DNA of 64,000 nt from Clostridiaceae bacterium (GTDB lineage Bacteria > Bacillota > Clostridia > Peptostreptococcales > Natronincolaceae): positions 1 through 64,000 of the forward strand of contig JAFIFG010000015.1 of assembly GCA_020832135.1 (NCBI GenBank), given 5' to 3'. How positions within the stretch are numbered: position 1 is the first letter of the stretch; each line of letters opens with the position of its first letter. The notes beneath the pieces are model-generated. The model saw only the letters and a list, made by a program, of their open reading frames with translations, ran no database searches and was not told the DNA's origin. The position numbers were made by a program, and so were the translations under genes. Below, one piece after another: positions 3,178-18,530 of the stretch.

Positions 3178-4875
3178 TTACACTCCTAATAATCTTTTAC
3201 CATAATCACTTTGAGGTTTTTCAAACACTTCACAGGCACTACCCTCTTCTATAATATTTCCTTGATACATGATGTATACTTTATTACTTATTTTCCTTGC
3301 TAAAGCAAGATCATGGGTAATATATAGCATGGCAAATCCAAACTTATTTTGTAATCCTTTTAGTAGTCGTAAGACATTGGCCTTTGTAGATGGATCCAGC
3401 ATAGAGCTTATTTCATCTGCTATTAAAAGCTTGGGTTCCATGACTAAACCCCTAGCAATGGCTAATCTTTGTCTTTGTCCACCACTTAAACTACTGCATT
3501 TTCTTTGTAAAAAATCCTTTGTTATAGGAAGCTGTACTTCTTCTAAAGCCTTTTTAACCATTCTATTTTTTTCTTCTTTTGTATCACTTTTTAAAATATC
3601 CAATGGCTCCTTTACAATTTCCTCCACTGTGAAACCTCCATTGGTGGCGGAGAAGGGATCTTGAAAAATGATTTGTATGCCTTTTTTTCTACTGGTGAAA
3701 TTATTACCAAGAACGGATTTTTCATCAAAGAGGACTTCTCCTCCATCTTCCTCCAATAAGCCACTTAATATGGTTGCCAAAGTAGTTTTACCTGATCCAG
3801 ATTGCCCAATTAAAGCTACAATTTCTCCCGAACGAACCTTTATACTACAGTTATTACAGGCTATTATAGGATTTCTGCCGTCGCCATAGGTTTTGTGGAT
3901 ATGCCTTCCTTCTAAAAGGGTAATGATACCACCTCTATTGCAGGCTACTTTTCTTTCTAGAGATACATACTGTAGCTCAGGTATTTTCTCTCTACAGCTT
4001 TCCTTCTTTTGATAGCATCTTTCCTGAAAAATACAGCCAGCTGTTTCTTCATCCTTATTCCCCTCTGGAATTCCCCATAGATCTTGATAAGGATTGATAT
4101 CCAAAGAGGCATCCAATAGTCCTCTTGTATATACATGCATAGGATTTTCTAGGACATCCTTTGTTACCCCCTCTTCCAATACCCTACCTTCATACATTAC
4201 CATTATTTTATTACTTAATCGCTGTATGACATACATATCATGGGATATGAGGAGCATAGCAAATTTCTTGTTTTTATGGAGACCTTCCAACAGCTGTAAT
4301 ATTTCCTCCTTTGATATGGCATCTAGGGCTGTAGTAGGTTCGTCTACAATAAGTAACTTAGGATCACATGCTAAGGACATAGCAATTAATACTTTTTGTC
4401 TCATTCCTCCCGATAGCTGATGGGGGTAGGCATGGCACCATTTTTCCTCTAAATGAACCATCTTTAATAACTCTTTTATTTTTTTATCCATCTCTTTTTT
4501 ACCTAGGTTTAGATGTTTTTTTATTGCCTCTAGGATCTGTTCCCTAATAGTCATAACTGGATTTAATACATCTAAATGATTTTGAAAAACAATGGCTATG
4601 TCCCTCCATCGATATTTATTTAATGCTTTTTCTGATAAGGTGTGAAGATACTCATCATTATAGAGAATTTCCCCGTTAGTTTCTACTGCCTTATCATGTA
4701 GTCCCATCAGAGCTAGAGCTATGGATGTTTTTCCACTTCCCGATTCACCTATGATTCCTAGGACATTCCCTTCTTCTATAGTAAAAGAAACTTCCCTTAC
4801 AGCTGTTATTTTTTCTGTTCCATAGGGGTAATCTACTTCTAAATTTTTCACCTCAAGTAATGCTTTCTTTATCAT
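3178..4875 (-). CDS. Fused double ATPase of a peptide/nickel-type ABC importer
   Basis: A 565-aa cytoplasmic protein joining two ATPase subunits of the Dpp/Opp/Nik family (DppD-DppF fusion). The first domain has Walker A GESGSGKT and signature LSGGMRQK. A cysteine-bearing oligopeptide-type C-terminal extension follows (CIFQERCYQKKESC). The second domain has Walker A GQSGSGKT and signature LSGGQRQR. It is the last gene of the operon running from the methyltransferase at 9179 through the binding protein and two permeases. The paralogous operon at 11.8-17.7 kb has separate ATPase genes. The B12 riboswitch at the operon head points to cobalt, a cobalt complex or a corrinoid-related substrate rather than peptides. 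Confidence 0.9.
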   Translation of the reverse strand: MIKKALLEVKNLEVDYPYGTEKITAVREVSFTIEEGNVLGIIGESGSGKTSIALALMGLHDKAVETNGEILYNDEYLHTLSEKALNKYRWRDIAIVFQNHLDVLNPVMTIREQILEAIKKHLNLGKKEMDKKIKELLKMVHLEEKWCHAYPHQLSGGMRQKVLIAMSLACDPKLLIVDEPTTALDAISKEEILQLLEGLHKNKKFAMLLISHDMYVIQRLSNKIMVMYEGRVLEEGVTKDVLENPMHVYTRGLLDASLDINPYQDLWGIPEGNKDEETAGCIFQERCYQKKESCREKIPELQYVSLERKVACNRGGIITLLEGRHIHKTYGDGRNPIIACNNCSIKVRSGEIVALIGQSGSGKTTLATILSGLLEEDGGEVLFDEKSVLGNNFTSRKKGIQIIFQDPFSATNGGFTVEEIVKEPLDILKSDTKEEKNRMVKKALEEVQLPITKDFLQRKCSSLSGGQRQRLAIARGLVMEPKLLIADEISSMLDPSTKANVLRLLKGLQNKFGFAMLYITHDLALARKISNKVYIMYQGNIIEEGSACEVFEKPQSDYGKRLLGV

Positions 4876-4926
4876 CCATTTCCCCCTCCCCTTATTTCTC
4901 TCATAAACTGTAGCCTTTTATTTTCT

Positions 4927-5754
4927 CTAGCATAGTAGATTCTCTATCTCTTTACTAATAAGGGAAATGGCCAGCACCATAAGCACAATACATAGAAGGG
5001 GAAAGATGATCCACCATTTCCAAAAATCTGTGAAATAAATGCCCCGAAAACTCATGGCGTGGTTTAAGATTAGACCCCAGCTTTTAGAGGTGGGATCTCC
5101 TAAACCCAAAAAGGATAAACTGGCTTCTGCAACGATAGCCCTACTGATTAATTTAATAAAGTTTACCATAATAAGAGGAAATACCTGTGGAAGAAAGTGT
5201 CTCCTAGCAAGATAAGAAAAACCTCCTCCATAGCCCTCCGCCACCTTTACATATTTTTCTTCCTTTATTGACAAAATCTTAGATCGTACGATCCTTGCAG
5301 GTCTCGTCCATGAAAAAAGACTTAATACAATAATAATATTCATTTTGCTTGGTCCAAAAAAAGCACCTAGGACAATCATGGTGGGCAGTTCTGGTACCAC
5401 CATCATTAAATCAATTGATCGCATTAGGCATCCATCCAGCTTTCCCCCATAATATCCCCCTAATATACCTATAAGACTTCCTCCGCCTGCTGCTAGAAAA
5501 GCTGTTCCAAAACCTACAATTAAACTACTCCTAGCACCATGACATATTTGTGCCCAAAGATCAATACCAAGATCATCTGTCCCCATCCAGTGCAGAGTAG
5601 AGGGAGGGGTTAGGGCTCCTCCTGAAGGTATATAAGGGGAGTGAGACGTCAGTAAACTTGGAATAATAGCTAAAATAAAAAATAACATCATCACCATGAC
5701 GGAGGCCTTACCTAAAAAGGAAAATGCTTTTATAAGATTTGATACTTTTTTCAT
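4927..5754 (-). CDS. ABC importer permease, DppC/NikC type
   Basis: A 275-aa inner-membrane permease with an N-terminal transmembrane segment and the family's periplasm-facing motif HWMGTDDLGIDLWAQI. The coupling (EAA-like) loop is around AEASLSFLGLGDPTSKSWG. It pairs with the DppB-type permease directly upstream: the upstream TAA stop abuts this ATG. Substrate is inferred only from the B12 riboswitch at the operon head. Confidence 0.9.
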   Translation of the reverse strand: MKKVSNLIKAFSFLGKASVMVMMLFFILAIIPSLLTSHSPYIPSGGALTPPSTLHWMGTDDLGIDLWAQICHGARSSLIVGFGTAFLAAGGGSLIGILGGYYGGKLDGCLMRSIDLMMVVPELPTMIVLGAFFGPSKMNIIIVLSLFSWTRPARIVRSKILSIKEEKYVKVAEGYGGGFSYLARRHFLPQVFPLIMVNFIKLISRAIVAEASLSFLGLGDPTSKSWGLILNHAMSFRGIYFTDFWKWWIIFPLLCIVLMVLAISLISKEIENLLC

Positions 5755-6735
5755 TTAACTCACCCTAGGATCTAATTTTTTATAAATAGCATCAGCAGTA
5801 TAATTCATCACCAATACAAATAACGTCATTACCACGAATATTCCCTGGATTAAAGGATAATCTCTAAAAAATACTCCTTGTCGCATTAACCTACCAACAC
5901 CTGGGTAATTAAAAACATTTTCTACTAATACTGCTCCACCTAATGCCCCTCCAAAACTTAAAAAAATTCTAGTAACAATAGGTGGAATAGCATTTCTTAA
6001 AGCATGATAAAAAAGAATTCTACGTCTTTTAAGACCCTTGCCTCTAGCAGTTTTTATATAGGCTTTGTCTAAAATAGAAATCATACTATTACGGGCTAAT
6101 AAATAAAATTCTCCAATTCTAGTAATGGTTAAAGCCATCAAGGGCAAGAAAGCATGAAGGAGAATGTCCTTTATCATTTCCCACCGCGAAGAGAAATCTA
6201 CAAAATGACTCATCCCACCAGATAAGGGAAATAATTTCAAATGTGCTGCAAAGTAAAATAACATGACTAGAGCAATGATAAAGGAAGGGACTTCCGACAA
6301 AGTAATTAATCCAGAGTACAGAATTTTGTCTAAACTACTATTTCTATAATAAGCTGATATAGTACCTAGAAAAACACCAATAGCAGCACTTAATAACACC
6401 GAGGCTATTACTAGAGATAGTGTCCATGCTATACGGCTCAAAACCAATGTCAGCACTTCTTCTTTATAGTGAATACTATAACCTAGATCTCCCTTCAGTA
6501 AATTTCTCACATAGGATATATATTGTTGCCATAAAGGCTGGTCTAGACCATAATATTTCTTATGTCTTTCTATATCCTCAGAGGAAAAGGCAGTATGATC
6601 CTGCCCCTCCTCTGCAGATAAAAAAGTAAAGGGGTCCCCTGGCATAAGCCTGGGGATAAAGAAATTTAGAGTGATAATACATAAAAAGATAATGATGTAT
6701 TGTTTAAATCCCAATATTTTTCTCTTTTTTTTCAT
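5755..6735 (-). CDS. ABC importer permease, DppB/NikB type
   Basis: A 326-aa permease with an N-terminal transmembrane helix, the family motif FIPRLMPGDPF, and the cytoplasmic coupling region KTARGKGLKRRRILFYHALRN. The C-terminal FNYPGVGRLMRQGVFFRDYPLIQG and ending LDPRVS are typical for DppB homologues. It sits 9 bp after the binding-protein stop and directly abuts the DppC-type gene, so the four transporter genes are one transcript. Confidence 0.9.
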   Translation of the reverse strand: MKKKRKILGFKQYIIIFLCIITLNFFIPRLMPGDPFTFLSAEEGQDHTAFSSEDIERHKKYYGLDQPLWQQYISYVRNLLKGDLGYSIHYKEEVLTLVLSRIAWTLSLVIASVLLSAAIGVFLGTISAYYRNSSLDKILYSGLITLSEVPSFIIALVMLFYFAAHLKLFPLSGGMSHFVDFSSRWEMIKDILLHAFLPLMALTITRIGEFYLLARNSMISILDKAYIKTARGKGLKRRRILFYHALRNAIPPIVTRIFLSFGGALGGAVLVENVFNYPGVGRLMRQGVFFRDYPLIQGIFVVMTLFVLVMNYTADAIYKKLDPRVS

Positions 6736-6744
6736 AGATCAAGA

Positions 6745-8325
6745 TTACTCTCTTTCTAAATAGGATAACTTGCCATGGCTAACACTGTGGTGGTCAAACA
6801 TATACATCCATCCATCATAAGTGTTTGGTCTATATACAGTGTAGCCGGTGGTATTATAAACTGGAATCATAGGAATTTCCTCTGCAATCAATTCCTGCAA
6901 TGCAGAAATAAGTTCTTTACGTTTGGCAATATCCATTTCCCTCAGCTGTTCTTCAGCCAAAGCATTGATTTGTTCATTTTCATAACCTGGAATATCACTA
7001 TATCTTGTCCTTAGAATATCAGCATCTCTACCCCAACCTCCATGTCCTATCAAGGCCATTTCATAATTTCCAGTAGACACTGCATTGTCTCTTGTCTTCA
7101 TATCTACACTTTTTATCTCTATTTCTACACCTATCTTTTCTAGGCTAATTTTCATTAATTCTGCAATTCTAACTTCTGCATTAGAGTCACCGGTTAACAG
7201 TTCAAAAGATAGTTTTTTATCCCCTAGTAAAGTTTTTGCCTTTTCTTCATCAAAAGGATACTTTTTCACTGTTGGGTTATACCATATATGGTTCTTTGGC
7301 AAGTATCCCGCACTTCCTGCAATAGCCGCACCCCTTGCGACTTTTTCTACCATTTCTTCTTGGTCTATACCATAGGCAATGGCCTGACGAATATCTTTTT
7401 CTTTAAAGAGAAGATTTTTTTCCATATTAAGACTTAAACGATATCCCCAAAAAGCTGGGTTTTCTAAAACTTTGAATTGAGGATCATTCTGATACCTATC
7501 TAACAAATCTGACCCTATGCCGATTACGTCTATCTCCTTATTTTCAAAGGCCATTATTTCGTCACTTACAGGTACAAATTGAATCTTTTCTACCCTTTGC
7601 TTTGGTCCCCAATAATCCTCAAAGGCTGTAAATTCATAGGTTTCATGTTCCTTGTTGTAATCTGTTAATTTATAAGGTCCACAACCTATAACTGCCCCTT
7701 CATCTTGGAAGCTGTCAGGGTCTTCCACCCCTGACCAAATATGCTCTGGAATAATTCTTACTGTGCCTATCTTTTCTAAAATCGTTGCATCCTTTTCTCC
7801 CAGAATAAATTTCAACCTGTTGTCCTCTAGAATTTCAATTTCCTTTACAATGGGTTCATTTCCTACCATAACAGGATTCCATACAGGAGGATGCTTTTCA
7901 AAATATTCAAAGGAGAACTTTACATCCTCTGGTGTTAAAGGTTGACCATCATGCCATTTTACATCCTGCTGTAGAGTAAAGATGTAACTTAATCCATCCT
8001 CTGCTATCTCCCATTCCTTCGCAAGCCATGGAATCACCCCTTCTTCACCGCTCTCTAATAAACTATCAAAAATCAACTGCATCTTGTAGCCGCCTGGACC
8101 CCTAGAATAGTGTAGATAAGGAGATGGATAGCCCCAATCTCCACCCTCGAGTCTAAGTACCACTGCCTCTTCTTCCTGTTTCACTTCCCCTTCACTAGCT
8201 ACAGCTGAAGGCTGAGCTTCTTCGTCTGAAGTAGATGTCCCACATCCTACCAGCGACAACAACATCATTCCTATAATCACTATTCCTATGACTTCTTTTA
8301 TTTTTTTATTTTTTATCCAGTACAT
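6745..8325 (-). CDS. ABC importer substrate-binding lipoprotein (SBP family 5)
   Basis: A 526-aa extracellular lipoprotein with signal peptide and lipobox LVGC near residue 28, then an acidic linker and a family-5 (peptide/nickel) binding fold. Family features seen are PWLAKEWEIAEDGLSYIFTL and the DVKFSFEYF region. It belongs to the methyltransferase-led operon with a B12 riboswitch leader. Family-5 proteins bind peptides, nickel or cobalt chelates, haem and sugars. The regulatory context favours a cobalt complex or corrinoid precursor, but ligand identity cannot be read from the sequence. Confidence 0.88.
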   Translation of the reverse strand: MYWIKNKKIKEVIGIVIIGMMLLSLVGCGTSTSDEEAQPSAVASEGEVKQEEEAVVLRLEGGDWGYPSPYLHYSRGPGGYKMQLIFDSLLESGEEGVIPWLAKEWEIAEDGLSYIFTLQQDVKWHDGQPLTPEDVKFSFEYFEKHPPVWNPVMVGNEPIVKEIEILEDNRLKFILGEKDATILEKIGTVRIIPEHIWSGVEDPDSFQDEGAVIGCGPYKLTDYNKEHETYEFTAFEDYWGPKQRVEKIQFVPVSDEIMAFENKEIDVIGIGSDLLDRYQNDPQFKVLENPAFWGYRLSLNMEKNLLFKEKDIRQAIAYGIDQEEMVEKVARGAAIAGSAGYLPKNHIWYNPTVKKYPFDEEKAKTLLGDKKLSFELLTGDSNAEVRIAELMKISLEKIGVEIEIKSVDMKTRDNAVSTGNYEMALIGHGGWGRDADILRTRYSDIPGYENEQINALAEEQLREMDIAKRKELISALQELIAEEIPMIPVYNTTGYTVYRPNTYDGWMYMFDHHSVSHGKLSYLERE

Positions 8326-8348
8326 CTTTTACCCCCCCCATTTATTTT

Positions 8349-9179
8349 TTATACATTCCAAGTTAAAACTCCAATTTTAACCTCTGTCTTTTCTTTTATC
8401 TTACCGCCTTCTTGATATTTTTTAAGTTCTTCCTTTATAAAAATCTTATCTTTTTCCTTTAATTCTACCTGCATAGATAGCTTATCCACATACAACTGCC
8501 ATGTTTCTTCTAATGTTCTCGTTTCCTCCCACCCTCTATTTAAATAAAAAACCTCTGGCCTATAGCCTAAATGCCATAGGACATTAAAGGCATAATATAC
8601 CTTTTTGTCCTTTCTTTTTTCCAGGGCAAATCTTGGAAAAAATTCCTCCTCTATCCGGTCCCAGATAGAATCCTTGCGATCTACAAAACCACTTAAAAAA
8701 CAATAGTTTCTACTGGCCTTCGTCATTTTTTCTAAAGTCTCAAAATCAAAGACCCCTGGTGTCATAGAGGCAAATACCAAATCAAAGGCATTGTCCCATC
8801 CCTCTTCCTCTAAATCAATGTCCTTCCAATCTTTTTTTAGGGTTTTAATATTATGTAAATTTACCTTTATAGCATTTTTTTGAAGATGATTTAACATATT
8901 TTCAGAAATATCTATGGCAGTAATTTCTTCTACAATCCATGCCATAGGTATGGTGTGCTTTCCAGGCCCACAACCTATATCCAGTACCTTCATACCTTCC
9001 TTTAACATTGCTCTTTTTTTTAATAAATCTACAATATCACTTGACTCCTTTGCATTTAAAACAACCTTCTCATTAAATGCCTTAGCCCTATTGTCCCAGA
9101 ATACCTCAGATTTTTTAGCATCTATATGCTTTTTTTTCCAAACATCCTTCCAGTACACTATGTTATCTACACTCTTCAT
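8349..9179 (-). CDS. Class I SAM-dependent methyltransferase heading transporter operon 1
   Basis: A 276-aa cytoplasmic methyltransferase. SAM-binding motif I is VLDIGCGPGKHTIPMA (about residues 65-80) and the acidic residue of motif II is in ITAIDISENML. It is the first gene after the B12 riboswitch and is followed within 25 bp by the binding protein. Two other transporter clusters in this window also contain a class I methyltransferase, so the link to uptake is unlikely to be chance. It could modify an imported ligand or make a metallophore. It lacks the precorrin-type methylase motifs I would expect of a Cbi enzyme. Confidence 0.85.
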   Translation of the reverse strand: MKSVDNIVYWKDVWKKKHIDAKKSEVFWDNRAKAFNEKVVLNAKESSDIVDLLKKRAMLKEGMKVLDIGCGPGKHTIPMAWIVEEITAIDISENMLNHLQKNAIKVNLHNIKTLKKDWKDIDLEEEGWDNAFDLVFASMTPGVFDFETLEKMTKASRNYCFLSGFVDRKDSIWDRIEEEFFPRFALEKRKDKKVYYAFNVLWHLGYRPEVFYLNRGWEETRTLEETWQLYVDKLSMQVELKEKDKIFIKEELKKYQEGGKIKEKTEVKIGVLTWNV

Positions 9180-9222
9180 AACTATTCTCCCTTCCCGAAC
9201 TTAGTAAGTTATTTTCTAAGCA

Positions 9223-9286
9223 AAAACAAAAACCACAAAAGCTAGCTAACAATCTTCATGATTGTGTACTAAACCTTCGTGGTTTC
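9223..9286 (-). terminator. AYGAA-hairpin element, copy a (riboswitch terminator)
   Basis: On the minus strand, AAACCACGAAGG can pair over 12 bp (with G-U pairs) with CTTTTGTGGTTT, followed by T-rich sequence: an intrinsic terminator. A nested hairpin ACAATC-ATGAA-GATTGT sits in its loop. The 5' arm can alternatively fold locally (AAACC-ACGAA-GGTTT) or pair with AAACCTTCG just downstream of the B12 aptamer, which would prevent termination. It lies between the aptamer and the methyltransferase gene. Confidence 0.65.
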
Positions 9287-9378
9287 ATCTCCGATAAAAT
9301 TTTTTTCAAAAACTTTACAAAAAATTCTCAAGAAATCACACCCTTCCCTCCGAAGGTTTTGTTCTATAACAAAATAAG

Positions 9379-9521
9379 GTAGGTCTCCTGACTTATGGAT
9401 CATCTTACTCTCCGACCTTCTCGGTTTCCCAATGGTATCTTCGGATTTCATTCCCATTTACAGTAGCGGGGGCTGTAGTGGATTTGCACCACTTTCCCTT
9501 TTAACTCTATTTAAGAGCACC
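9379..9521 (-). promoter_or_regulatory. Cobalamin riboswitch 1
   Basis: The minus strand contains the B12 box AGTCAGGAGACCTACC at the 3' end, the conserved core AAGTGGTGCAAATCCAC...GCCCCCGCTACTGT, and a paired 5'/3' boundary. This is a clear class-I cobalamin riboswitch. It precedes the methyltransferase and ABC importer operon (9179 down to 3178). A terminator follows at 9223-9286, so control is most likely transcriptional, switched off by adenosylcobalamin. Confidence 0.93.
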
Positions 9522-9582
9522 TTAATAAGTTAAGCTTTTTTAGTTTTTATCATTGTATTAAATTCCATATTTTTACCATATA

Positions 9583-9611
9583 ATTATACTATTTATTGTA
9601 AATTTTGTCAA
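9583..9611 (-). promoter_or_regulatory. Promoter of B12-riboswitch operon 1
   Basis: TTGACA (9606-9611) and TATAAT (9583-9588) on the minus strand are separated by exactly 17 nt. This is a consensus sigma-A promoter placed about 60 nt upstream of the cobalamin aptamer. Confidence 0.8.
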
Positions 9612-9646
9612 ATAATTAACTATGTAGGCTTTACACCTTAGTTCAT

Positions 9647-11638
9647 TTACTCATACTTAAACTTAGCAATGCTTTCTTGCATTGCATCTGCTAATTCCGC
9701 TAGTAAAACACTTGCTCTAGCTATTTCCTCTACGGATGCAGTCTGTTCTTCTATCGATCCAGATGTCTCTTCTATTACTGCTGCACTTTCTTGACATATA
9801 ACCGATAGTTTTTGTACAATTCTTATAATTTCATTCTTTTTACTATTCATTATTTCTCCTGATTGACCCATCTTCCCTATTATTTCCTTCATGCTTTCAA
9901 TAGAGTTATTTATTCCTTTAAATTTGGTATTGGTCAATTCAACACTTTCCGTTTGGGAGGACACAATATTTCCAACCTCCTCCATTGTTTTTACTGCATA
10001 GCCTGTTTTGTCATTTAATTCCTTAATAATAGTTGTGATTTCTTCGGTAAATGTATTTGACTGTTCTGCCAATTTCCGTATTTCCTCTGCTACTACTGCA
10101 AAGCCTTTACCAGATTCACCAGCCCTAGCCGCTTCTATAGCAGCATTCAATGCCAATAAGTTGGTTTGGTCTGCAATATTTTTAATCATTACACTGGCCT
10201 TTTCTATCCTTTGTGCATTTTCATTGGTATGAATAATAATCCCATGTATCTCCTCAGCTGCTTTATTACTGACATGATTCTTTTTTACTAACTCATTTAA
10301 TATTTCAAAGCCTTCTTCTTTTAACCTAACTACTTCATCGGTGGCATAGATTAAATCCTTCATATGTATTTGATCTTTTTCTATTAGTTCCCCTAATTTG
10401 TTAATATGGTCTACTCCTTCTTCTGTATCCATCGCTTGCTTATTTGCACCTTCCGCAATAGACTCGATGGTGCTTGCTATTTCATCTGCTGCTGTAGCTG
10501 ACTGTTGACTAGTTGCACTTAGTTCTTGAGATGAAGAAGTCACCTGTTGTGAAGCATTTACTATTTGATGAATAAATTCCCTAAGATTATCTGTAATAGT
10601 TTGAAAAGCCTTTGCCAAGGCTCCAATTTCATCTTTTCTATTCATAAATACTTTAGGCACATCTTCTGTAATATTTAACGCTGCTATTTTTCTTCCATAA
10701 GCTATTGTAGCTAAAATTGGTTTTGTCACTGAATTACCTATTATGTAGCATAGAACAATACTTATTATAAAAATTACAAAGGATATTAATAGCATGTTTT
10801 TTTGTAATTTGGGCAAATGATTCAATACTTCTTCTGCATTAGCGGTAGTAACCAATATCCAAGTAGTGCCTTCTATAGGTGCATAACCTACATAAAGCTG
10901 ACTCTCTTCAAAATAATATCTATTTACACCCCACCCCTCTTGTATCATGGTTTGAAATACTTCAGCCACTGGTTGTAATTCATTATCCTCTAGTGCTGTT
11001 TCTATAGGATTCCATTTATCCATTACCCTATCTCTATTTGGGTGGGCAATTACAGTTCCTTCTTTGTCAATCATGTAGGCATAGCCCATTTCTCCAAAAC
11101 CCATATCCCTGGTGATTTCACTTAATACCTCAACATACCTTCTACCGATAAGGGCACCTACTATTTCTCCATCATTTTCTATAGGAACAGCATAGATAAA
11201 TATGGATTTACCACTTAACAAACTATCCATTACATCAGAGACAACTACTTCTCCACGAAGGGCTCTTTGAACATATTCTCTTTCACTTGCGTCTGCTATT
11301 GTACCATCATGAAAAAAAGCTGTACCATCAGGATTAACAACTGCAAGAGCCTCAAAATTTGTTCTGGGCAATTGCCGCTCTAATACCTGCCGCTGCACTT
11401 CCCAATCCATCCCTTCCATATCACTTCTTCTAGCTAACATTCCTAATGTTCTAATTTGGGTTTCAATGCGACTCTCTGTTAATCTTGCTCCTTCTAAAGC
11501 TAATTGTTGCAATGCTTTTTCTGCCTCTACTACAACAGCATGCTCAATCTGGTTAATAGAGACCAAGGTAAACACCGTAGATACAAATAACATCAAAGCA
11601 GAGAAACAAATAATCAGCTTTATTTTTATACTTTTCAT
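9647..11638 (-). CDS. Methyl-accepting chemotaxis protein with dCache sensor
   Basis: A 663-aa membrane chemoreceptor. Transmembrane helix 1 is at about 8-30, then an extracellular dCache-type sensor (about 35-270, with [14 protein letters not shown] and [14 protein letters not shown]), transmembrane helix 2 (about 278-300), HAMP, and a signalling domain with the hairpin tip [21 protein letters not shown]. It is transcribed alone between two B12-regulated transporter operons. Its promoter carries a Fur-box-like palindrome just after the -10, so metal-dependent repression is likely. The ligand is unknown; a metal complex or organic metallophore would fit the location. Confidence 0.92.
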
Positions 11639-11735
11639 GATTATCCCCCCGATAAATTGGATTTTTTCTTTAGCATGTATAAAATAAAACTCTCATATAA
11701 AAAAATAGACTTCAATAAGCAGTGATATTTCCGTA

Positions 11736-11758
11736 ATGATAATAAATATCATTATCAT
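11736..11758. promoter_or_regulatory. Fur-family operator-like palindrome at the chemoreceptor promoter
   Basis: A 23-bp near-palindrome has perfect 8-bp arms ATGATAAT / ATTATCAT. Against the 19-bp Fur consensus it differs at about two central positions. It starts at the end of the -10 of the chemoreceptor promoter, the expected place for a repressor site. Fur itself is not in the window; Zur or PerR could also read such a box. Confidence 0.65.
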
Positions 11759-11785
11759 TGTACTATTGTTTCTATTTCTTGTCAA
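11757..11785 (-). promoter_or_regulatory. Promoter of the chemoreceptor gene
   Basis: Minus-strand TTGACA (11780-11785), a 17-nt spacer and TACAAT (11757-11762). The Fur-like palindrome follows directly downstream, giving a leader of about 110 nt. Confidence 0.75.
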
Positions 11786-11806
11786 TTTTTTAAAAGGGTT
11801 TTATAC

Positions 11807-12553
11807 TTATCTTTCTCCGCCTACTAAAAACATAGGTGTACACTTATACCTTACCTTTCTTTCTTCATCCCACACTAAGTCAGTAATATCTTTATCTACA
11901 AATAGTTTTTTAAATCCATGATTCAAAAGGGCTTCTGCATCCCATTGAGGTCTTCGTCTAGAGGTTAAATATAAATCCTTGCCGATACTACTACTTTCAT
12001 CCTCAAAGGATTTTATAAAGGGTTCATATCCTAATTCTACTGTTCTTCTTTGATCTTCTTCAAATTGCTTCTGAAGTTCTGGGTCCGTTAGTCTTAAGTA
12101 CCAATTGGCATCAAAGATAAGTATTCTACCTCCCGGCTTCAATAATCTATGCCATTCAGCATAGGCCTTTATAGGGTCTACTAGGGTCCAAACTAGATTT
12201 CTACAAACAATCAAATCAAAGGAAGCATCTTCAAAGGGGAGTTCATGACAGTCTCCTTGAAGAAAATCTGCAGAGAAACCTGCCCTTTCAACATTTTTTC
12301 TTGCCTCTACTAACATATTCTCCGTATAGTCAACGGCAGTCACTTTATAGCCTAGGTCTGACATAATAATGGTAAAAAAACCTGGCCCCGTTCCAACGTC
12401 TAAAGCTTTGATGTTTTCCCTCTCTGGAGTATAGTCCTTAATAAGTTTACTCCAAGCATTGATTTGAAAGGTATTCATCTCCTTTTGAATACTTGTACTG
12501 TAACTGCTAGCTCGATGATTCCAATAATTTTCAATACGATTTTGGATTAACAT
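11807..12553 (-). CDS. Class I SAM-dependent methyltransferase ending transporter operon 2
   Basis: A methyltransferase of about 248 aa with motif I ALDVGTGPGFFTIIMS, motif II VTAVDYTENML, and LPFEDASFDLIVCRNLVW typical of the Methyltransf_11 fold. I chose the ATG at 12553: it follows GGGGAGTG at 7 nt and begins just after the upstream ATPase stop; a longer frame opens with TTG at 12568. It is the last gene of the second B12-riboswitch importer operon, whereas in operon 1 the methyltransferase comes first. The protein is clearly diverged from the one at 8349-9179. Confidence 0.85.
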   Translation of the reverse strand: MLIQNRIENYWNHRASSYSTSIQKEMNTFQINAWSKLIKDYTPERENIKALDVGTGPGFFTIIMSDLGYKVTAVDYTENMLVEARKNVERAGFSADFLQGDCHELPFEDASFDLIVCRNLVWTLVDPIKAYAEWHRLLKPGGRILIFDANWYLRLTDPELQKQFEEDQRRTVELGYEPFIKSFEDESSSIGKDLYLTSRRRPQWDAEALLNHGFKKLFVDKDITDLVWDEERKVRYKCTPMFLVGGER

Positions 12554-12557
12554 GTTA

Positions 12558-13349
12558 TCACTCCCCAATATCCACCTGCAAAACAGAGGACAATAATTTT
12601 TTTGTATAAGGATGTTTTGGAGCTTCTATAATTCCTTTTGTCTCCCCAGATTCAACCTCCTGCCCTTTATATAAGACACATATTCTATCACAAATACAAC
12701 TAACAAGGGCCAAATCATGAGATATAAATAAGATTGCCATATCTAAGCTCTTTTCTAACTCCATAAGCAACTCTATAATTTGTGCTTGGGCTGATACATC
12801 CAAAGCACTGGTGGCTTCATCGCATATTAATAGCTTAGGGTGAACTGCAATGGCTCTGGCAATTGCAGCTCTTTGACATTCTCCACCACTGAGTTGATGA
12901 GGATATTTATTTGCATATTCAGACTTAAGACCTACCTGCTTAAGCAAAGATACTATAGCTTCTTTCATATGAGCTTTAGACATAGCCTTAGGGTTATAGC
13001 ATAGATGACATAAAGTTTCTTTTATAGCCTCTCCTATTTTCATACGGGGATTAAAGGAACCCACAGGATCTTGAAAAACCATTTGCATCTCTTTATAGAC
13101 CTCTAAACATGCTTTTCCCTTTATATTAGAGATGTCTTTTCCATCGAAAAAAATATTTCCTTCATCCACCTTTTGTAAATGTGTAATTAATTTTGCTATT
13201 GTACTTTTACCACTTCCGCTTTCTCCTACTAGGCCCAGCACTTCTCCAGGCATAATTTGAAAGCTTACATCATCAACAGCAGTAATTTTATATTTACCTT
13301 TTCCAAAGGTTTTTTTTATATTATGAACTTCTAGAATAGGTTGACTCAT
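12558..13349 (-). CDS. ABC importer ATPase, DppF/NikE type
   Basis: A 263-aa ATPase with Walker A GESGSGKST, signature LSGGECQRAAIARAI, and Walker B LLICDEATSALD. The C-terminal HPYTKKLLSS stretch is typical of the oligopeptide branch. It overlaps the preceding DppD-type gene by 29 bp, indicating translational coupling. It partners the ATPase at 13321-14304 and the permeases upstream. Confidence 0.92.
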   Translation of the reverse strand: MSQPILEVHNIKKTFGKGKYKITAVDDVSFQIMPGEVLGLVGESGSGKSTIAKLITHLQKVDEGNIFFDGKDISNIKGKACLEVYKEMQMVFQDPVGSFNPRMKIGEAIKETLCHLCYNPKAMSKAHMKEAIVSLLKQVGLKSEYANKYPHQLSGGECQRAAIARAIAVHPKLLICDEATSALDVSAQAQIIELLMELEKSLDMAILFISHDLALVSCICDRICVLYKGQEVESGETKGIIEAPKHPYTKKLLSSVLQVDIGE

Positions 13350-14304
13350 GTGAACTCACTCCACTTAAGGGAATACAGCTTGTCCAATGATTTTTTTTCA
13401 CTGAAGTTATACTGTATTCTTTTTTTTGGCATGTATCTTGAGAATAATCACACCTTGTTGAAAAACTGCATCCTCTGTGCATGTCCTTAAAGCTTAAAGG
13501 TTCTCCTCTTACCCCTTTTGGTACCTTCCCATCCATTTTAGGTATAGCTTGTAGCAATGTCTTTGTGTAGGGGTGTGTTGGATTTCTCAAAATTTCCTTT
13601 TTCTCACCGTATTCTACAATGCGACCTGCATACATGACACCTATCTTGTCCGCTATTTTGGCAACTACACCCATATTGTGGGTAATCATCATAATGGAAG
13701 TACCAAATACTTGACGTAATTTTAATATTTCCTCCACCACCTGTGCTTGCACTGTAACGTCTAATGCACTTGTTGGTTCATCTGCTAAAATCAACTCTGG
13801 TTCCATAACCATGGCTAAAGCAATTGCTACTCTCTGGTTCATACCACCACTCAATTGAAAGGGATAACTGTTTAAGATTCTCTCACCATCCTGTAGGTTA
13901 AGGCATTCTAATAAACCCACTATCTTTTTATATGCCTCTTTTTTATGGATTTTTTTATGACTCTGCATTGCCTCTACAAACTGATGCTTTATTTTCCTTA
14001 AAGGATTTAGGGATGCTCCTGGGTTTTGAAAAATCACCCCTAACCTAGTTCCTCTTAATTGTCTTAGCTCCTCTTTGGAGCAGGAGGTAATATCTGTTTT
14101 TCCAAATAGGATACAACCTTTTCTTGTAATCACATCTGTGCCAGTAAGCTGTAGGATTGCTTTCAAAAGTGTGCTTTTACCGCATCCACTTTCTCCTACA
14201 ATACCTAATATCTCACCTTTTTTTATAGTAAAGCTTATATCCTTTACTATGTCTACGCCTCCATACCCAACACTTAGGTTTTTAACCTGTAGCAAATCCT
14301 CCAA
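13321..14304 (-). CDS. ABC importer ATPase, DppD/NikD type
   Basis: A 327-aa ATPase with Walker A GESGCGKST, signature LSGGMNQRVAIALAM, and Walker B LILADEPTSALD. A C-terminal cysteine-containing extension (GCSFSTRCDYSQDTC) matches the oligopeptide ABC C-terminal domain. The start is TTG, 8 nt after GGGAGG. Operon 1 has the equivalent unit fused to its partner in one protein. Confidence 0.92.
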   Translation of the reverse strand: MEDLLQVKNLSVGYGGVDIVKDISFTIKKGEILGIVGESGCGKSTLLKAILQLTGTDVITRKGCILFGKTDITSCSKEELRQLRGTRLGVIFQNPGASLNPLRKIKHQFVEAMQSHKKIHKKEAYKKIVGLLECLNLQDGERILNSYPFQLSGGMNQRVAIALAMVMEPELILADEPTSALDVTVQAQVVEEILKLRQVFGTSIMMITHNMGVVAKIADKIGVMYAGRIVEYGEKKEILRNPTHPYTKTLLQAIPKMDGKVPKGVRGEPLSFKDMHRGCSFSTRCDYSQDTCQKKEYSITSVKKNHWTSCIPLSGVSSHESTYSRSS

Positions 14305-14352
14305 TGGCCTAACCTCCCAGAACAGTGATAGCTCTCCTACCTGTACAAACTT

Positions 14353-15912
14353 TTATTGAATAGTTGAATCAACGTTAAATTGATAATAATCAGTTGGATG
14401 AGATTTAAATCCTTTTACATTCTCTTTCATAATCATGGTCATATTGTTAAATCCAATAAAATCATAAGCATAATCCTCTAATGCTAATTGTTGAATCTCA
14501 ATTACTAATGCTGTACGCTTTTCAGAATCAAATTCCCTTAGTAGTTGTTCTAATAATGCATCCACTTTAGCATTGCTATAATTTCCAAAGTTGTTATCCA
14601 TATCTGTTCTCATGGTAGCATTTAAAAAGGCTGCAGCATCACCTGTAGAAGTAGTAACGATGCAATACATGCCAATATCAAATTCCCCTGCCTTCAAATA
14701 CTCTGTATTATCAAATACTGTAACCTTAACATCTATTCCTATTTTCTTTAATGCTGCCTGCATTTCTGTAGCAATATCCTCCTGTGCCAACCTTCTGTAA
14801 AGAACTAGATCAATAGAAAGAGGTTCTCCATCCTTCTCTACTATGCCATCTCCACTCATGTCTTCATAGCCTGCTTCTTCTAGCAGTTTTCTAGCAGCTT
14901 CTGGATTATAGGCAATGCCATCTAGCTGTTGTCCCCCATAAGGCATTGTGTCAGGGAAAGCCCCTATAGCAGGAGTTGCTGAATTGTTTAATAAGTAGGT
15001 ACTAATTCCTTCTTTATCTATAGCCATAGAAATTGCTTTCCTTACTGCTTCATCCTTTAAGGTATCTAGGTTGTAATAAAGCATATAGGCTCTAGAGGTT
15101 CCCACTTGGGATATAGTATATTGTGATGTATCTTGGAATAAATCCACGGCATCGGCTGTAATATTATGGGCAATGTCAATTTCACCAGATTGTAGGGCCA
15201 TCACTAAGGTATCCATATCAGGAATCGTTTTTATATATGCCTTATCCAGCTGAGGTGTTCCATTCCAATAGTTTGTGTTTTTCTCTAAATCAATAGATTC
15301 ATTTGCCACAAAAGCTACCGGTACATAAGGACCAGTTCCTACAGGATTCATACTTCTATCCTCCGTTGCATCTAAATCGATAATAGATGCATAGGGGTCA
15401 CAAAGATCATTGATTAAGGTAGCATGAGGTTCCTCTGTTTCAATGATTAAGGTAACATCATCCTCTACTCTATAATTAGCTGTGCTAAATACAGCAGCAC
15501 GATAGTTTTCTTCACCAAAATGCTTCATATTTTCCACTACTTTATGAGCGGTTACAGGTTCTCCATTAGAAAACCTTATATTGTCTTTTAAAGTTACTTT
15601 CCATGTTAATTCATCGAGATTTTCATAGGATTCCGCCAACCAAGGCTCTGGAACTAAGGATTCATCTAACTTAAACAACGTCTCTGTCACACCATATCTA
15701 ACAGAAAACCATCCTTGCCAATCTATATGGGGATCTAAGGAGGCCACGGCATTGGTAGTACCAAAGGTTAAAGATTTTTCCTCTACTAAAACTTCCCCTT
15801 CATGGCTGACTTTTGTAGCTATTTCCTCTACCTCGTTTGCTCCCATGCAGCCTATTAGCATAAGGCTCAAAGCAACTAATAAACATGCTACTAATTTATT
15901 TTTCATTTTCAT
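14353..15912 (-). CDS. ABC importer substrate-binding lipoprotein (SBP family 5), operon 2
   Basis: A 519-aa lipoprotein with signal peptide and lipobox LIGC near residue 22, followed by a family-5 binding fold (EPWLAESYENLDELTWKVTL, DNIRFSNGEPVTAHKVVENM). It is clearly different from the operon 1 binding protein, so the two importers may take different ligands or forms of one ligand. It lies between the permeases and the ATPases in the second B12-riboswitch operon. Confidence 0.9.
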   Translation of the reverse strand: MKMKNKLVACLLVALSLMLIGCMGANEVEEIATKVSHEGEVLVEEKSLTFGTTNAVASLDPHIDWQGWFSVRYGVTETLFKLDESLVPEPWLAESYENLDELTWKVTLKDNIRFSNGEPVTAHKVVENMKHFGEENYRAAVFSTANYRVEDDVTLIIETEEPHATLINDLCDPYASIIDLDATEDRSMNPVGTGPYVPVAFVANESIDLEKNTNYWNGTPQLDKAYIKTIPDMDTLVMALQSGEIDIAHNITADAVDLFQDTSQYTISQVGTSRAYMLYYNLDTLKDEAVRKAISMAIDKEGISTYLLNNSATPAIGAFPDTMPYGGQQLDGIAYNPEAARKLLEEAGYEDMSGDGIVEKDGEPLSIDLVLYRRLAQEDIATEMQAALKKIGIDVKVTVFDNTEYLKAGEFDIGMYCIVTTSTGDAAAFLNATMRTDMDNNFGNYSNAKVDALLEQLLREFDSEKRTALVIEIQQLALEDYAYDFIGFNNMTMIMKENVKGFKSHPTDYYQFNVDSTIQ

Positions 15913-15928
15913 CTTCCTCTCTTGTTTA

Positions 15929-16795
15929 TTATGAACTATTATTTATTCTTGGATCTAAAAAGTCCCGTAGGGCATCTCCAAAAAGATTAAAAATAATAAT
16001 AGTAACCATCATGACTAGCCCAGGAAAAAGACTTATCCATGGTGCTATTTGTAAATAGCTTCTTCCACTATTCACCATAGAGCCCCATTCAGCCTGAGGC
16101 ACTTGTACCCCTAACCCTAGAAAGGAAAGTCCTGCAATTCCCATCATCATGGTGCCAATTTGAAGGGTAGCTATCACCACCAATACACCTATAATATTAG
16201 GTAAGATATGACGAAAAAGAAGCCTTAAATCGCTATTACCACTTAATCTAGCGGCTTGTATAAAGGTATCCTCCTTCATGGTCAAAACATTACTTCTTGC
16301 GACACGAGCATATTGTGTCCACCCTGTTAAGCCCAACGCCAACATAGCATTAAACAATCCTCCCCCTATGATACCAGCTACTGCAATGCCTAGTATAATA
16401 TCTGGAAAGGCTAACAAAATATCAGCAATCCGCATAAAAAGATTATCTATCCATCCTCCATAGTATCCACACACAATACCAATAGTGGTACCTATGACAA
16501 AAGTAATAATTACCAGCATCAGAGCTGCAGAAATCGAAGTTCTAGCCCCTATCAAAACCCTTGAAAAAACACAGCGGCCATGACTATCGGTTCCAAAGAG
16601 AAATTCCTGCGATGGTGGTAGATTTCTTCCTCTTATATCAGTGGCATAGGGATCATTAGGAACCATGTAGGGGGCTACTATACTGATAAAAATTAAGATT
16701 ATAGTTATGACCATCAGTAGATAAAACCTTAATTTTACAAAATTTAAAGACCTTTTCTTCTTTTCTTCCATCGGCAATATCTTTACTTCATCCAT
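15929..16795 (-). CDS. ABC importer permease, DppC/NikC type, operon 2
   Basis: A 288-aa permease with an N-terminal transmembrane helix, the motif LFGTDSHGRCVFSRVLIGAR, and the coupling region IAGLSFLGLGVQVPQAEWG. It is separated by 10 bp from the DppB-type gene upstream and 16 bp from the binding-protein gene downstream. Confidence 0.92.
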   Translation of the reverse strand: MDEVKILPMEEKKKRSLNFVKLRFYLLMVITIILIFISIVAPYMVPNDPYATDIRGRNLPPSQEFLFGTDSHGRCVFSRVLIGARTSISAALMLVIITFVIGTTIGIVCGYYGGWIDNLFMRIADILLAFPDIILGIAVAGIIGGGLFNAMLALGLTGWTQYARVARSNVLTMKEDTFIQAARLSGNSDLRLLFRHILPNIIGVLVVIATLQIGTMMMGIAGLSFLGLGVQVPQAEWGSMVNSGRSYLQIAPWISLFPGLVMMVTIIIFNLFGDALRDFLDPRINNSS

Positions 16796-16805
16796 AGCTT
16801 CACCT

Positions 16806-17735
16806 CTAACTACTGTATGTCCTGGGGTCCAATAACCTATAGGATATATCTACTATTAAATTCACCATCACATAAATGAAGGTCATCCAAACAACAAATC
16901 CTTGAATAACAGGATAGTCTCTAGCACCAATTGCATCCATCACCAATTTCCCCAATCCTGGCCATATAAAAATCGTTTCTACAATAACGGTTCCTCCAAG
17001 TAAAGAACCAATGGACAATCCAATCAAAGTGATAATAGTAACCATTGTATTGTATAAAACATTTTTGTATAAAATAATCCTTTCCTTCACTCCTCTAGCC
17101 CTAGCCCCCACTACATATTCCTTGTTTAATTCTTCTAGTACAACCGCTCTAACCTGCCTTATGTATCTAGATGACATAGCAATTGATAAGGCGACAGTAG
17201 GTAAAATTAACCCCTTTAGACTTCCTTCTGCCAGCACTGGTAGCCAATTTAATTTCAATGCAAAAAAATAGATTAGTAGTAGGGATAAAAAAAAGTTAGG
17301 CATAGCTACACCAATAAATGTCATACATCGAATCAAATAATCAGATGCTTTATTGTGTTTAACTGCAGCTAATATACCAATGGGAATGGAGACCAACAAT
17401 GTCACCATCATAGAACTAATAGATAGCATAATTGTTTTGGGTAGAGCCCTCATTAACTTCTCAGCTACTGGTAAATGATCGGCATAGGATTTCCCCATAT
17501 CTCCTGACAAAAAGTTTCTTAGCCAAGTAAGGTATTGTAGTACAAAGGGATTGTCTAAACCCATCTCTATTCTTGTTTGCTCTATTATGTCTTGAGAAAT
17601 AGGAACGCCCTGTGCCGATAGCTTCATGCTGGCAGGATCACCTGGTGCCAAATACATAAGTCCAAAGGTCAAAAGAGTCACTCCAAGCATGATAGGAATT
17701 AACTGTAATAATCGCTTTATTATATATTGAAACAA
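16806..17735 (-). CDS. ABC importer permease, DppB/NikB type, operon 2
   Basis: A 309-aa permease, the first gene of operon 2. It begins with the family signature MFQYIIKRLLQLIPIMLGVT and has MYLAPGDPA, the coupling region GARARGVKERIILYKNVL, and the C-terminal FIWPGLGKLVMDAIGARDYP. The leader upstream holds a B12 riboswitch and a terminator element. Confidence 0.93.
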   Translation of the reverse strand: MFQYIIKRLLQLIPIMLGVTLLTFGLMYLAPGDPASMKLSAQGVPISQDIIEQTRIEMGLDNPFVLQYLTWLRNFLSGDMGKSYADHLPVAEKLMRALPKTIMLSISSMMVTLLVSIPIGILAAVKHNKASDYLIRCMTFIGVAMPNFFLSLLLIYFFALKLNWLPVLAEGSLKGLILPTVALSIAMSSRYIRQVRAVVLEELNKEYVVGARARGVKERIILYKNVLYNTMVTIITLIGLSIGSLLGGTVIVETIFIWPGLGKLVMDAIGARDYPVIQGFVVWMTFIYVMVNLIVDISYRLLDPRTYSS

Positions 17736-17842
17736 CGCTTTTGCCTCCTATGGAAAATTTTTAAAATATTCTCCTCTTATTAGTAATATTTAATCCTATC
17801 TTTAATTAACTAGTTCCTACATTTCCCATAAATACTTTACTA

Positions 17843-17907
17843 AATAAAAAGACCACAAAAATTAGTTGCAGTCGTCATGACTACACACTAAACCTTCGTG
17901 GTTTCAT
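17843..17907 (-). terminator. AYGAA-hairpin element, copy b (riboswitch terminator)
   Basis: Minus-strand AAACCACGAAGGTTTAGT pairs almost throughout with ACTAATTTTTGTGGTC and then reaches a T-run. A nested hairpin GTC-ATGAC-GAC lies in the loop. The 5' arm can alternatively pair with ACCTTCG at 17956-17962, downstream of the B12 aptamer, as an antiterminator. It is the counterpart of copy a at 9223-9286. Confidence 0.65.
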
Positions 17908-17980
17908 CAAAAACAAAAAAATCTCATGAATTTTCCAAAAACACACACTCCCCTCCGAAGGTAGTTCTATAACAATATAA

Positions 17981-18123
17981 GGCAGGTCTCCTGACTCATG
18001 GATCATCTTACTCTCCGGCCTTCTCGGTTTCCCAATGGCATCCTGGATTTCATTCCCATTTACAGTAGCGGGGGCTGTAGTGGATTTGCACCACTTTCCC
18101 TTTTAACTCTATGAAAGAGCACC
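17981..18123 (-). promoter_or_regulatory. Cobalamin riboswitch 2
   Basis: The aptamer is nearly identical to riboswitch 1, including B12 box AGTCAGGAGACCTGCC and the core GTGCAAATCCACTACAGCCC on the minus strand. It precedes the DppB-led importer operon (17735 down to 11807). The near-identity of both aptamers and their downstream segments suggests duplication of the whole leader. Confidence 0.94.
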
Positions 18124-18172
18124 TTATATGCTATGTTTTGTTAAATTCTTAATTATTACAAATTTCTATTTA

Positions 18173-18201
18173 AACATACTATACTCTAAAAATTTTGTCA
18201 A
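18173..18201 (-). promoter_or_regulatory. Promoter of B12-riboswitch operon 2
   Basis: Minus-strand TTGACA (18196-18201), a 17-nt spacer and TATGTT (18173-18178). The -35 lies inside one arm of an 18-bp perfect inverted repeat. Confidence 0.7.
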
Positions 18202-18254: not shown

Positions 18255-18530
18255 CTACTCTTTTCCACTGTTGCTTACAAAATAAAATAAGATAAGCAAA
18301 TCATTGTTTAAATTCATATTTTCTACAACTACTCCTTCTGGTGCATCAAGATCTATGGGTGGAAAATTCCAGACAGCATTTATCCCAAGCTTTATTAATG
18401 TGGTCCAAAGCCTCCAAACAAATTGAGATCGTGTCGAATATGAGAAATAGTAAAACCAAGTATATCATTATCTAATATTTGATTACTATATATCTTATAA
18501 GTATGGTAATTTGGATACTCTAAAAAAGTA
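18255..18530 (-). pseudogene. Decayed rex gene (internal deletion)
   Basis: Minus-strand fragments match the intact Rex at 36156-36791. An N-terminal piece reads ILGFTISHIRHDLNLFGGFG (intact copy: IGFTPSQIRQDLNSFGGFG), then a stop. In another frame a C-terminal piece reads LGINAVWNFPPIDLDAPEG and VVVENMNLNNDLLIL (intact: VSAIWNFSPLDIHVPEG...). The Rossmann NADH-binding core between them is missing, as is the N-terminal start. It is therefore a deleted, frameshifted second rex copy next to the end of the ECF operon. Boundaries are approximate. Confidence 0.8.

Follow-up and report, generated by a model that had tools for sequence, protein, structure and literature searches.

What is carried into the cell by two ATP-binding cassette (ABC) importers of the Nik/Opp type that are both preceded by a cobalamin (B12) riboswitch and both include a gene for an S-adenosylmethionine (SAM)-dependent methyltransferase? 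The question is raised by two operons, op1 and op2, in the first 64,000 nucleotides (the window) of contig JAFIFG010000015.1 from a Clostridiaceae bacterium with a 4.0-Mb genome (assembly GCA_020832135.1). The evidence presented below indicates that both operons are, with high probability, B12-repressed importers of cobalt complexes, and the complete reading, in which each is accompanied by a SAM-dependent methyltransferase acting on the chelate ligand, is probable. Cobalt and nickel limit B12, methane formation and acetogenesis, and little is known of how anaerobes and methanogens acquire these metals where sulfide or carbonate is abundant.

Two unlike importers behind similar riboswitches

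Both operons lie on the minus strand and contain the complete NikABCDE-type component set, consisting of a family-5 binding protein, two permeases and two ATPase domains (Table 1). The gene order is MT1-SBP1-OppB-OppC-fused double ATPase in op1 (9179-3178) and OppB-OppC-SBP2-OppD-OppF-MT2 in op2 (17735-11807), the MT2 reading frame overlapping oppF by 11 nucleotides. An earlier note, made from the letters of this DNA alone, had correctly placed the methyltransferase first in one operon and last in the other; its count of two ATPases per operon applies to op2, where OppD and OppF are separate, but not to op1, where both domains reside in one chain. The importers are also nonidentical, as the note had stated, since their counterparts share just 22-39% protein identity. 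In contrast, the two riboswitches, RS1 and RS2, which it had called near-identical, are 88% identical in their aptamers, which suggests that the riboswitch passed between unlike operons by copying or exchange. Both are full-length (RF00174 model positions 1-189 complete), lie directly upstream of their operons and exceed the RF00174 gathering score of 31.5 (Table 1).

In a relative (L042), the op1 riboswitch is located between rex and MT1 and shares 94% identity with RS2; in the window, a rex remnant lies directly upstream of RS2. For these reasons RS2 looks, as far as sequence comparison goes, like the ancestral op1 leader. An intact rex occurs at 36791-36156, upstream of the third cobalamin riboswitch of the window. 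The terminator hairpins of both leaders were equalled in stability by 0 of 200 shuffled sequences, and the 5' arm of the RS1 terminator contains CGAAGGTTT, to which the leader segment AAACCTTCG can alternatively base-pair (9270-9370 fold). A putative promoter match sits 40-70 nucleotides upstream of RS1. Given the observed aptamers and terminators, B12 scarcity would be expected to let transcription through.

The host genome contains 11 cobalamin riboswitches, whose neighbourhoods include CobU, CobA, CobS, CobQ, two CobT, a uroporphyrinogen methyltransferase/HemD fusion, a CbiX-like chelatase and CbiM. BtuF/C (BtuFCD-type) and ECF genes are also present. The host makes B12 and therefore needs cobalt.

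A methyltransferase linked to the importer

A profile scan recovered 80 SBP1 loci from Clostridia, Desulfobacterota, Synergistota, Spirochaetes, one Armatimonadetes metagenome-assembled genome and many methanogens; neighbourhood counts over eight genes were made for the 79 in which the SBP1 frame could be read. An MT1-type gene lies at most eight genes from SBP1 in 59 of these 79 loci, in first, second or last place, versus 0 of 40 ordinary family-5 loci of the host and related genomes (Fisher p 7e-17), a comparison limited by the origin of all controls in one order and of the SBP1 loci in many phyla. OppB occurs in 75 and FmdE in 33 of the 79 loci, and none of the 40 controls has FmdE. Chance linkage between MT1 and the importer was rejected on these controls, and the tie between methyltransferase and transporter type that the earlier note had proposed is thereby supported.

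In three of the 20 SBP1 loci that lack MT1 the gene appears to be replaced. A TrmO-like gene, from another, non-homologous SAM-methyltransferase family, stands directly before SBP1 in L107 (assigned by PF01980, TrmO_N), L134 and L137 (both assigned by similarity), and in none of the 59 MT1-bearing loci (p 0.014). L137 also lies behind RF00174. Elsewhere in the host genome (L061), an MT1 homologue (30% identity) overlaps a binding-protein gene (MT4-SBP4) between larC and larB (8035-12999), with no permease or exporter adjoining.

MT2 shows comparable associations. In the relative L086, an orthologue, 80% identical, ends a B12-riboswitch (RF00174) operon that also encodes a genuine NikA (TIGR02294, 720 bits against a cut-off of 393) as its binding protein, in which all six pocket residues checked are retained. 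Homologues of MT2 are found again in B12-riboswitch settings together with importers of the Opp or BtuFCD type (L090, L092, L095, L096), among them a BtuFCD-type operon in L092. In L086, L090 and L092 they are followed by paired ABC proteins of about 575-600 amino acids, YbtPQ- or exporter-like, where exporter-like refers to length and ATPase similarity alone. A third class I methyltransferase, MT3, is encoded in the window at 40837-37215 (minus strand), in one gene run with a ZnuCBA-type metal ABC importer and an FmdE that is 94% identical to the FmdE beside op1 in L042.

By its predicted structure (AlphaFold2 pLDDT 93), MT1 is a class I, small-molecule-type methyltransferase: the model has a Rossmann class I fold, with Z 18.4 to both ChlM and UbiG, motif I (VLDIGCGPG) is present, and D67, G69, G71 and G73 are invariant in the alignment. 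The linkage, the TrmO-like replacement and the overlap with binding-protein genes are most simply explained if the substrate of the methyltransferase is the organic ligand of the imported complex, which is judged rather likely. A protective or regulatory enzyme that leaves the ligand untouched, and for example methylates a toxic metalloid or a protein while the importer runs, would fit the MT1 homologues located away from importers (L043, L045, L046, L071-L073, L075). The tight linkage to binding-protein genes, the frame overlap in L061 and the TrmO-like replacement make such a role improbable.

Binding proteins and the nature of the cargo

SBP1 belongs to a distinct family found in Clostridia, Desulfobacterota and methanogens and marked by a conserved DHHxxxH tail. 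His512, His513 and His517 are near-invariant across the family, and His513 aligns to the NikA Thr490 column; the motif is proposed, from the alignment, as a candidate metal site. The SBP1 model (pLDDT 88) matches CjNikZ best, with Z 34.7 and a root-mean-square deviation of 2.6 over 454 residues, tied with CtaP, CcNikZ-II (34.3) and several peptide binders, and sequence identity to the NikZ/NikA nickel-chelate binding proteins is 20-24%. The best sequence matches of SBP2 are NikA proteins. Both fall below the TIGR02294 (NikA) cut-off of 393 bits (SBP1 134.8, SBP2 200.9), and among the NikA pocket residues Arg97, Trp100, Arg137, Trp398, Tyr402 and His416, SBP1 retains Arg137 alone and SBP2 Arg97 alone.

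The peptide binders tied with NikZ would suit ordinary peptide importers that came under the control of B12 riboswitches, with the methyltransferases as incidental neighbours. The earlier note had named binding of ordinary peptides alone as an outcome that would overturn its proposal, and the binding sites disfavour it. At the position of DppA Asp408, which anchors the peptide amino group, 35 of 41 aligned SBP1 relatives have Trp (Trp431 in SBP1) and SBP2 has Ser422, and the DppA Arg355 column is gapped in the SBP1 relatives. With these anchors lost, ordinary peptide import was rejected; given also the lack of such methyltransferases in the 40 ordinary loci and the Nik/Cnt-level scores of the op1 ATPase and the op2 permease, it is hardly credible. 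The lipoprotein would instead bind a cobalt chelate, as residues and context suggest, the Nik-type permease and ATPase would, as in their family, carry it inward, and the cytoplasmic cobalt would presumably enter corrin synthesis.

A corrinoid fragment or precursor as cargo, with the methyltransferase working on the corrin, would agree with the cobalamin riboswitches, with the MT2 homologue beside the BtuFCD-type operon behind RF00174 in L092, and with the ability of family-5 proteins to bind haem. However, the same methyltransferase families are found with lar nickel genes and NikA, a host that makes B12 already has BtuFCD-type, ECF and CbiM genes, and MT1 reaches just 38 bits against CbiT (cut-off 78), a similarity of generic level. 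A corrinoid substrate was rejected on the nickel context of these families and is considered very improbable, so that, of the cargoes named in the earlier note, the cobalt chelate is supported and the corrinoid fragment disfavoured.

The lar genes, the B12 riboswitches and the NikA of L086 point to nickel or cobalt as the element common to the SBP1, MT1 and MT2 contexts. In L107 the importer is joined to LarE and LarC, encoded by nickel-pincer genes. Since some SBP1 loci that lack a riboswitch have such a nickel context, the substrate was broadened to nickel/cobalt, not to peptides. In Desulfobacterota, TonB-receptor genes lie near the SBP1 operon (L138:5258-7552, and similarly in L142, L146, L149, L167, L170 and L181); the L138 receptor, with 732 bits to the FCYXU-motif model (cut-off 825), is possibly of a selenoprotein type. 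MinD-type ATPases near eight loci are not claimed as CooC, the one tested matching CbiA/ParA only in Pfam and nothing in NCBIfam.

Possible synthesis of the ligand or release of the metal

If the methyltransferase applies SAM to a chelating small molecule, as proposed here, it could do so before or after uptake. Of five genomes examined whose importer locus is without MT1, four lack the gene from the entire assembly (Tepidibacter formicigenes, Clostridium sp. KNHs214, Desulfoscipio geothermicus and Haloimpatiens); the fifth, Formimonas, encodes MT1 at another site. The enzyme therefore helps the system, yet the importer functions, or persists, without it. This pattern favours chelator synthesis, with importer-only species acting as ligand pirates. 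Also, 13 methanogen SBP1 loci have an ABC-2 exporter permease gene after those of the importer (Pfam-confirmed for one). The direction tentatively preferred is that the methyltransferase makes or tailors the chelator, in a simplified version of the staphylopine (cnt) scheme with a SAM-using enzyme, an importer and in some cases an exporter, because this explains both the exporters and the importer-only genomes.

Alternatively, the methyltransferase of the same importers may modify the incoming ligand and so lower its metal affinity that cobalt is freed and passes to FmdE-type proteins. The MT-binding protein overlap in the L061 lar locus, with its lack of adjoining transport genes, and the frequency of FmdE in SBP1 loci would suit this route, as would the presence among the top Foldseek matches of MT1 of GtmA and TmtA, two thiol S-methyltransferases whose substrates are metal-binding natural products of the dithiol kind. 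VIA-align, however, ties these two with unrelated methyltransferases, and retention of the importer in genomes devoid of MT1 is hard to explain if the enzyme is needed, which leaves release unlikely.

Chelator synthesis, the preferred direction, can be extended to a minimal metallophore system. In it, one SAM-dependent transferase would convert a common metabolite into a cobalt/nickel chelator in a single reaction, by adding a methyl or aminocarboxypropyl group, and the loaded complex would be recovered by FmdE and a Nik-type importer dedicated to it. Such a system would be common to Clostridia, Desulfobacterota and methanogenic archaea, and importer-only species would be its pirates; taken jointly, this scheme is speculative and somewhat doubtful.

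Several results weigh against the interpretation as a whole. A B12 riboswitch lies directly upstream in just seven of the 80 SBP1 loci, so cobalt specificity rests on regulation. The earlier note had counted homologous operons under unrelated signals as evidence against itself, and this has come true in part: the riboswitch is rare across the family and present in most op1 loci of close relatives. No other Rfam regulatory element was found upstream of 14 SBP1 operons that lack it. No exporter adjoins op1 or op2. The host genome gave no match to opine dehydrogenase (PF10100), in a search without a responding positive control, and only a sub-threshold match (22.3 bits) to nicotianamine synthase (PF03059). 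Finally, assignment of an MT1 substrate from its fold neighbours was rejected, as too many methyltransferases tie.

Relation to known systems

NikABCDE homologues under B12 riboswitch control, apart from nickel-specific NikA orthologues, are noted for Clostridium tetani and Desulfitobacterium hafniense in a passage of PMC2667541, and the nikA riboswitch of Sporomusa ovata responds experimentally to corrinoids, according to the relevant part of PMC9600662. Like op1 and op2, these operons place a Nik/Opp-type ABC importer behind a cobalamin riboswitch; the parts of the two papers that deal with them discuss no methyltransferase, whereas op1 and op2 have one each. They also differ in that the SBP1 family is separate from NikA and that nearly one riboswitch is shared by two non-orthologous systems. 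A search of the open-access literature retrieved such Nik operons and no account of a methyltransferase/FmdE module with this importer; the former are already known, and the latter is apparently new.

The staphylopine/pseudopaline (cnt) systems, which take up cobalt, nickel and other metals as chelates, likewise set a SAM-using enzyme beside a Nik/Opp-type importer, and an exporter joins the operon in the methanogen SBP1 loci as well. In contrast to cnt, no CntK/CntM-like genes were seen beside op1 and op2, control is by B12, and MT1 and MT2 are ordinary class I methyltransferases, not members of the nicotianamine-synthase family. As for the NikZ/NikA proteins (CjNikZ, SaNikA, CcNikZ-II), SBP1 resembles CjNikZ in fold and SBP2 resembles NikA in sequence, but both are without most NikA pocket residues and SBP1 has its own histidine-rich tail. 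CbiMNQO and BtuFCD/ECF also provide B12-riboswitch-controlled cobalt or corrinoid supply, and the host has such genes; they belong to unrelated transporter families and, in this genome, adjoin no class I methyltransferase. That a methyltransferase is linked to this importer family in bacteria and archaea alike suggests that cobalt/nickel uptake involves a small-molecule step not yet described, and the enzyme provides a direct route to identifying the molecule.

Table 1. Features of op1, op2 and their leaders in the window.
Feature	Position	Strand	Evidence
MT1, class I SAM-dependent methyltransferase, op1 gene 1	8349..9179	-	Methyltransf_25/31; AlphaFold2 pLDDT 93, class I fold
SBP1, family-5 binding lipoprotein, C-terminal D511HHxxxH517xKLSYL motif	6745..8325	-	PF00496 (SBP_bac_5) 238 bits; alignments; model pLDDT 88
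OppB-type permease, op1	5755..6735	-	BPD_transp_1 157 bits
OppC-type permease, op1	4927..5754	-	BPD_transp_1 75 bits
Fused double ATPase, op1	3178..4875	-	Two ABC_tran domains; exceeds NikD, NikE, CntD and CntF cut-offs
OppB/NikB-type permease, op2	16806..17735	-	NF045470 nickel ABC permease 393.8 bits (cut-off 350)
OppC-type permease, op2	15929..16795	-	BPD_transp_1 116 bits
SBP2, family-5 binding lipoprotein, SaNikA/Bacillus NikA type	14353..15912	-	PF00496 274 bits; NF045468 342 bits (cut-off 600); best PDB 3t66 and SaNikA 4ofj
OppD-type ATPase, op2	13321..14304	-	ABC_tran and oligo_HPY
OppF-type ATPase, op2	12558..13349	-	ABC_tran
MT2, class I SAM-dependent methyltransferase, op2 final gene	11807..12568	-	Methyltransf_11 94.8 bits; 80% identical orthologue in L086
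RS1, cobalamin riboswitch aptamer, op1 leader	9361..9539	-	RF00174 130.1 bits
RS2, cobalamin riboswitch aptamer, op2 leader	17964..18141	-	RF00174 127.1 bits
RS1 intrinsic terminator (expression platform)	9222..9290	-	Minimum free energy -26.5 kcal/mol, z -6.4
RS2 intrinsic terminator	17836..17905	-	Minimum free energy -24.0 kcal/mol, z -4.9
Putative sigma-70-like promoter of op1, TTGACA-17-TATAAT	9583..9611	-	12/12 consensus match
rex gene remnant directly upstream of RS2	18267..18514	-	tblastn with intact Rex, E 2e-14 and 2e-7

Neighbouring and related loci

Between op1 and op2 lies a gene for a methyl-accepting chemotaxis protein (11638-9647, minus strand) with its own promoter-like site (11785-11757). 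The same genome has a third riboswitch-led family-5 importer (L062:10937-5090, minus strand), whose first gene encodes, in place of a methyltransferase, an ATP-grasp protein with weak similarity to glutathione synthetase.

The third cobalamin riboswitch of the window (110.9 bits) leads a minus-strand region (35942-18635) that encodes two SLH-type surface proteins of very large size (2839 and 1284 amino acids), the smaller with SLH, DUF4430 and cyclase/prenyltransferase-toroid matches, together with a further protein carrying DUF4430 and a set of ECF S, A and T components. This region is an intrinsic-factor/transcobalamin-like B12 capture system. In L095/L096, a divergent riboswitch precedes a protein of 1147 amino acids that is weakly DUF4430-like.

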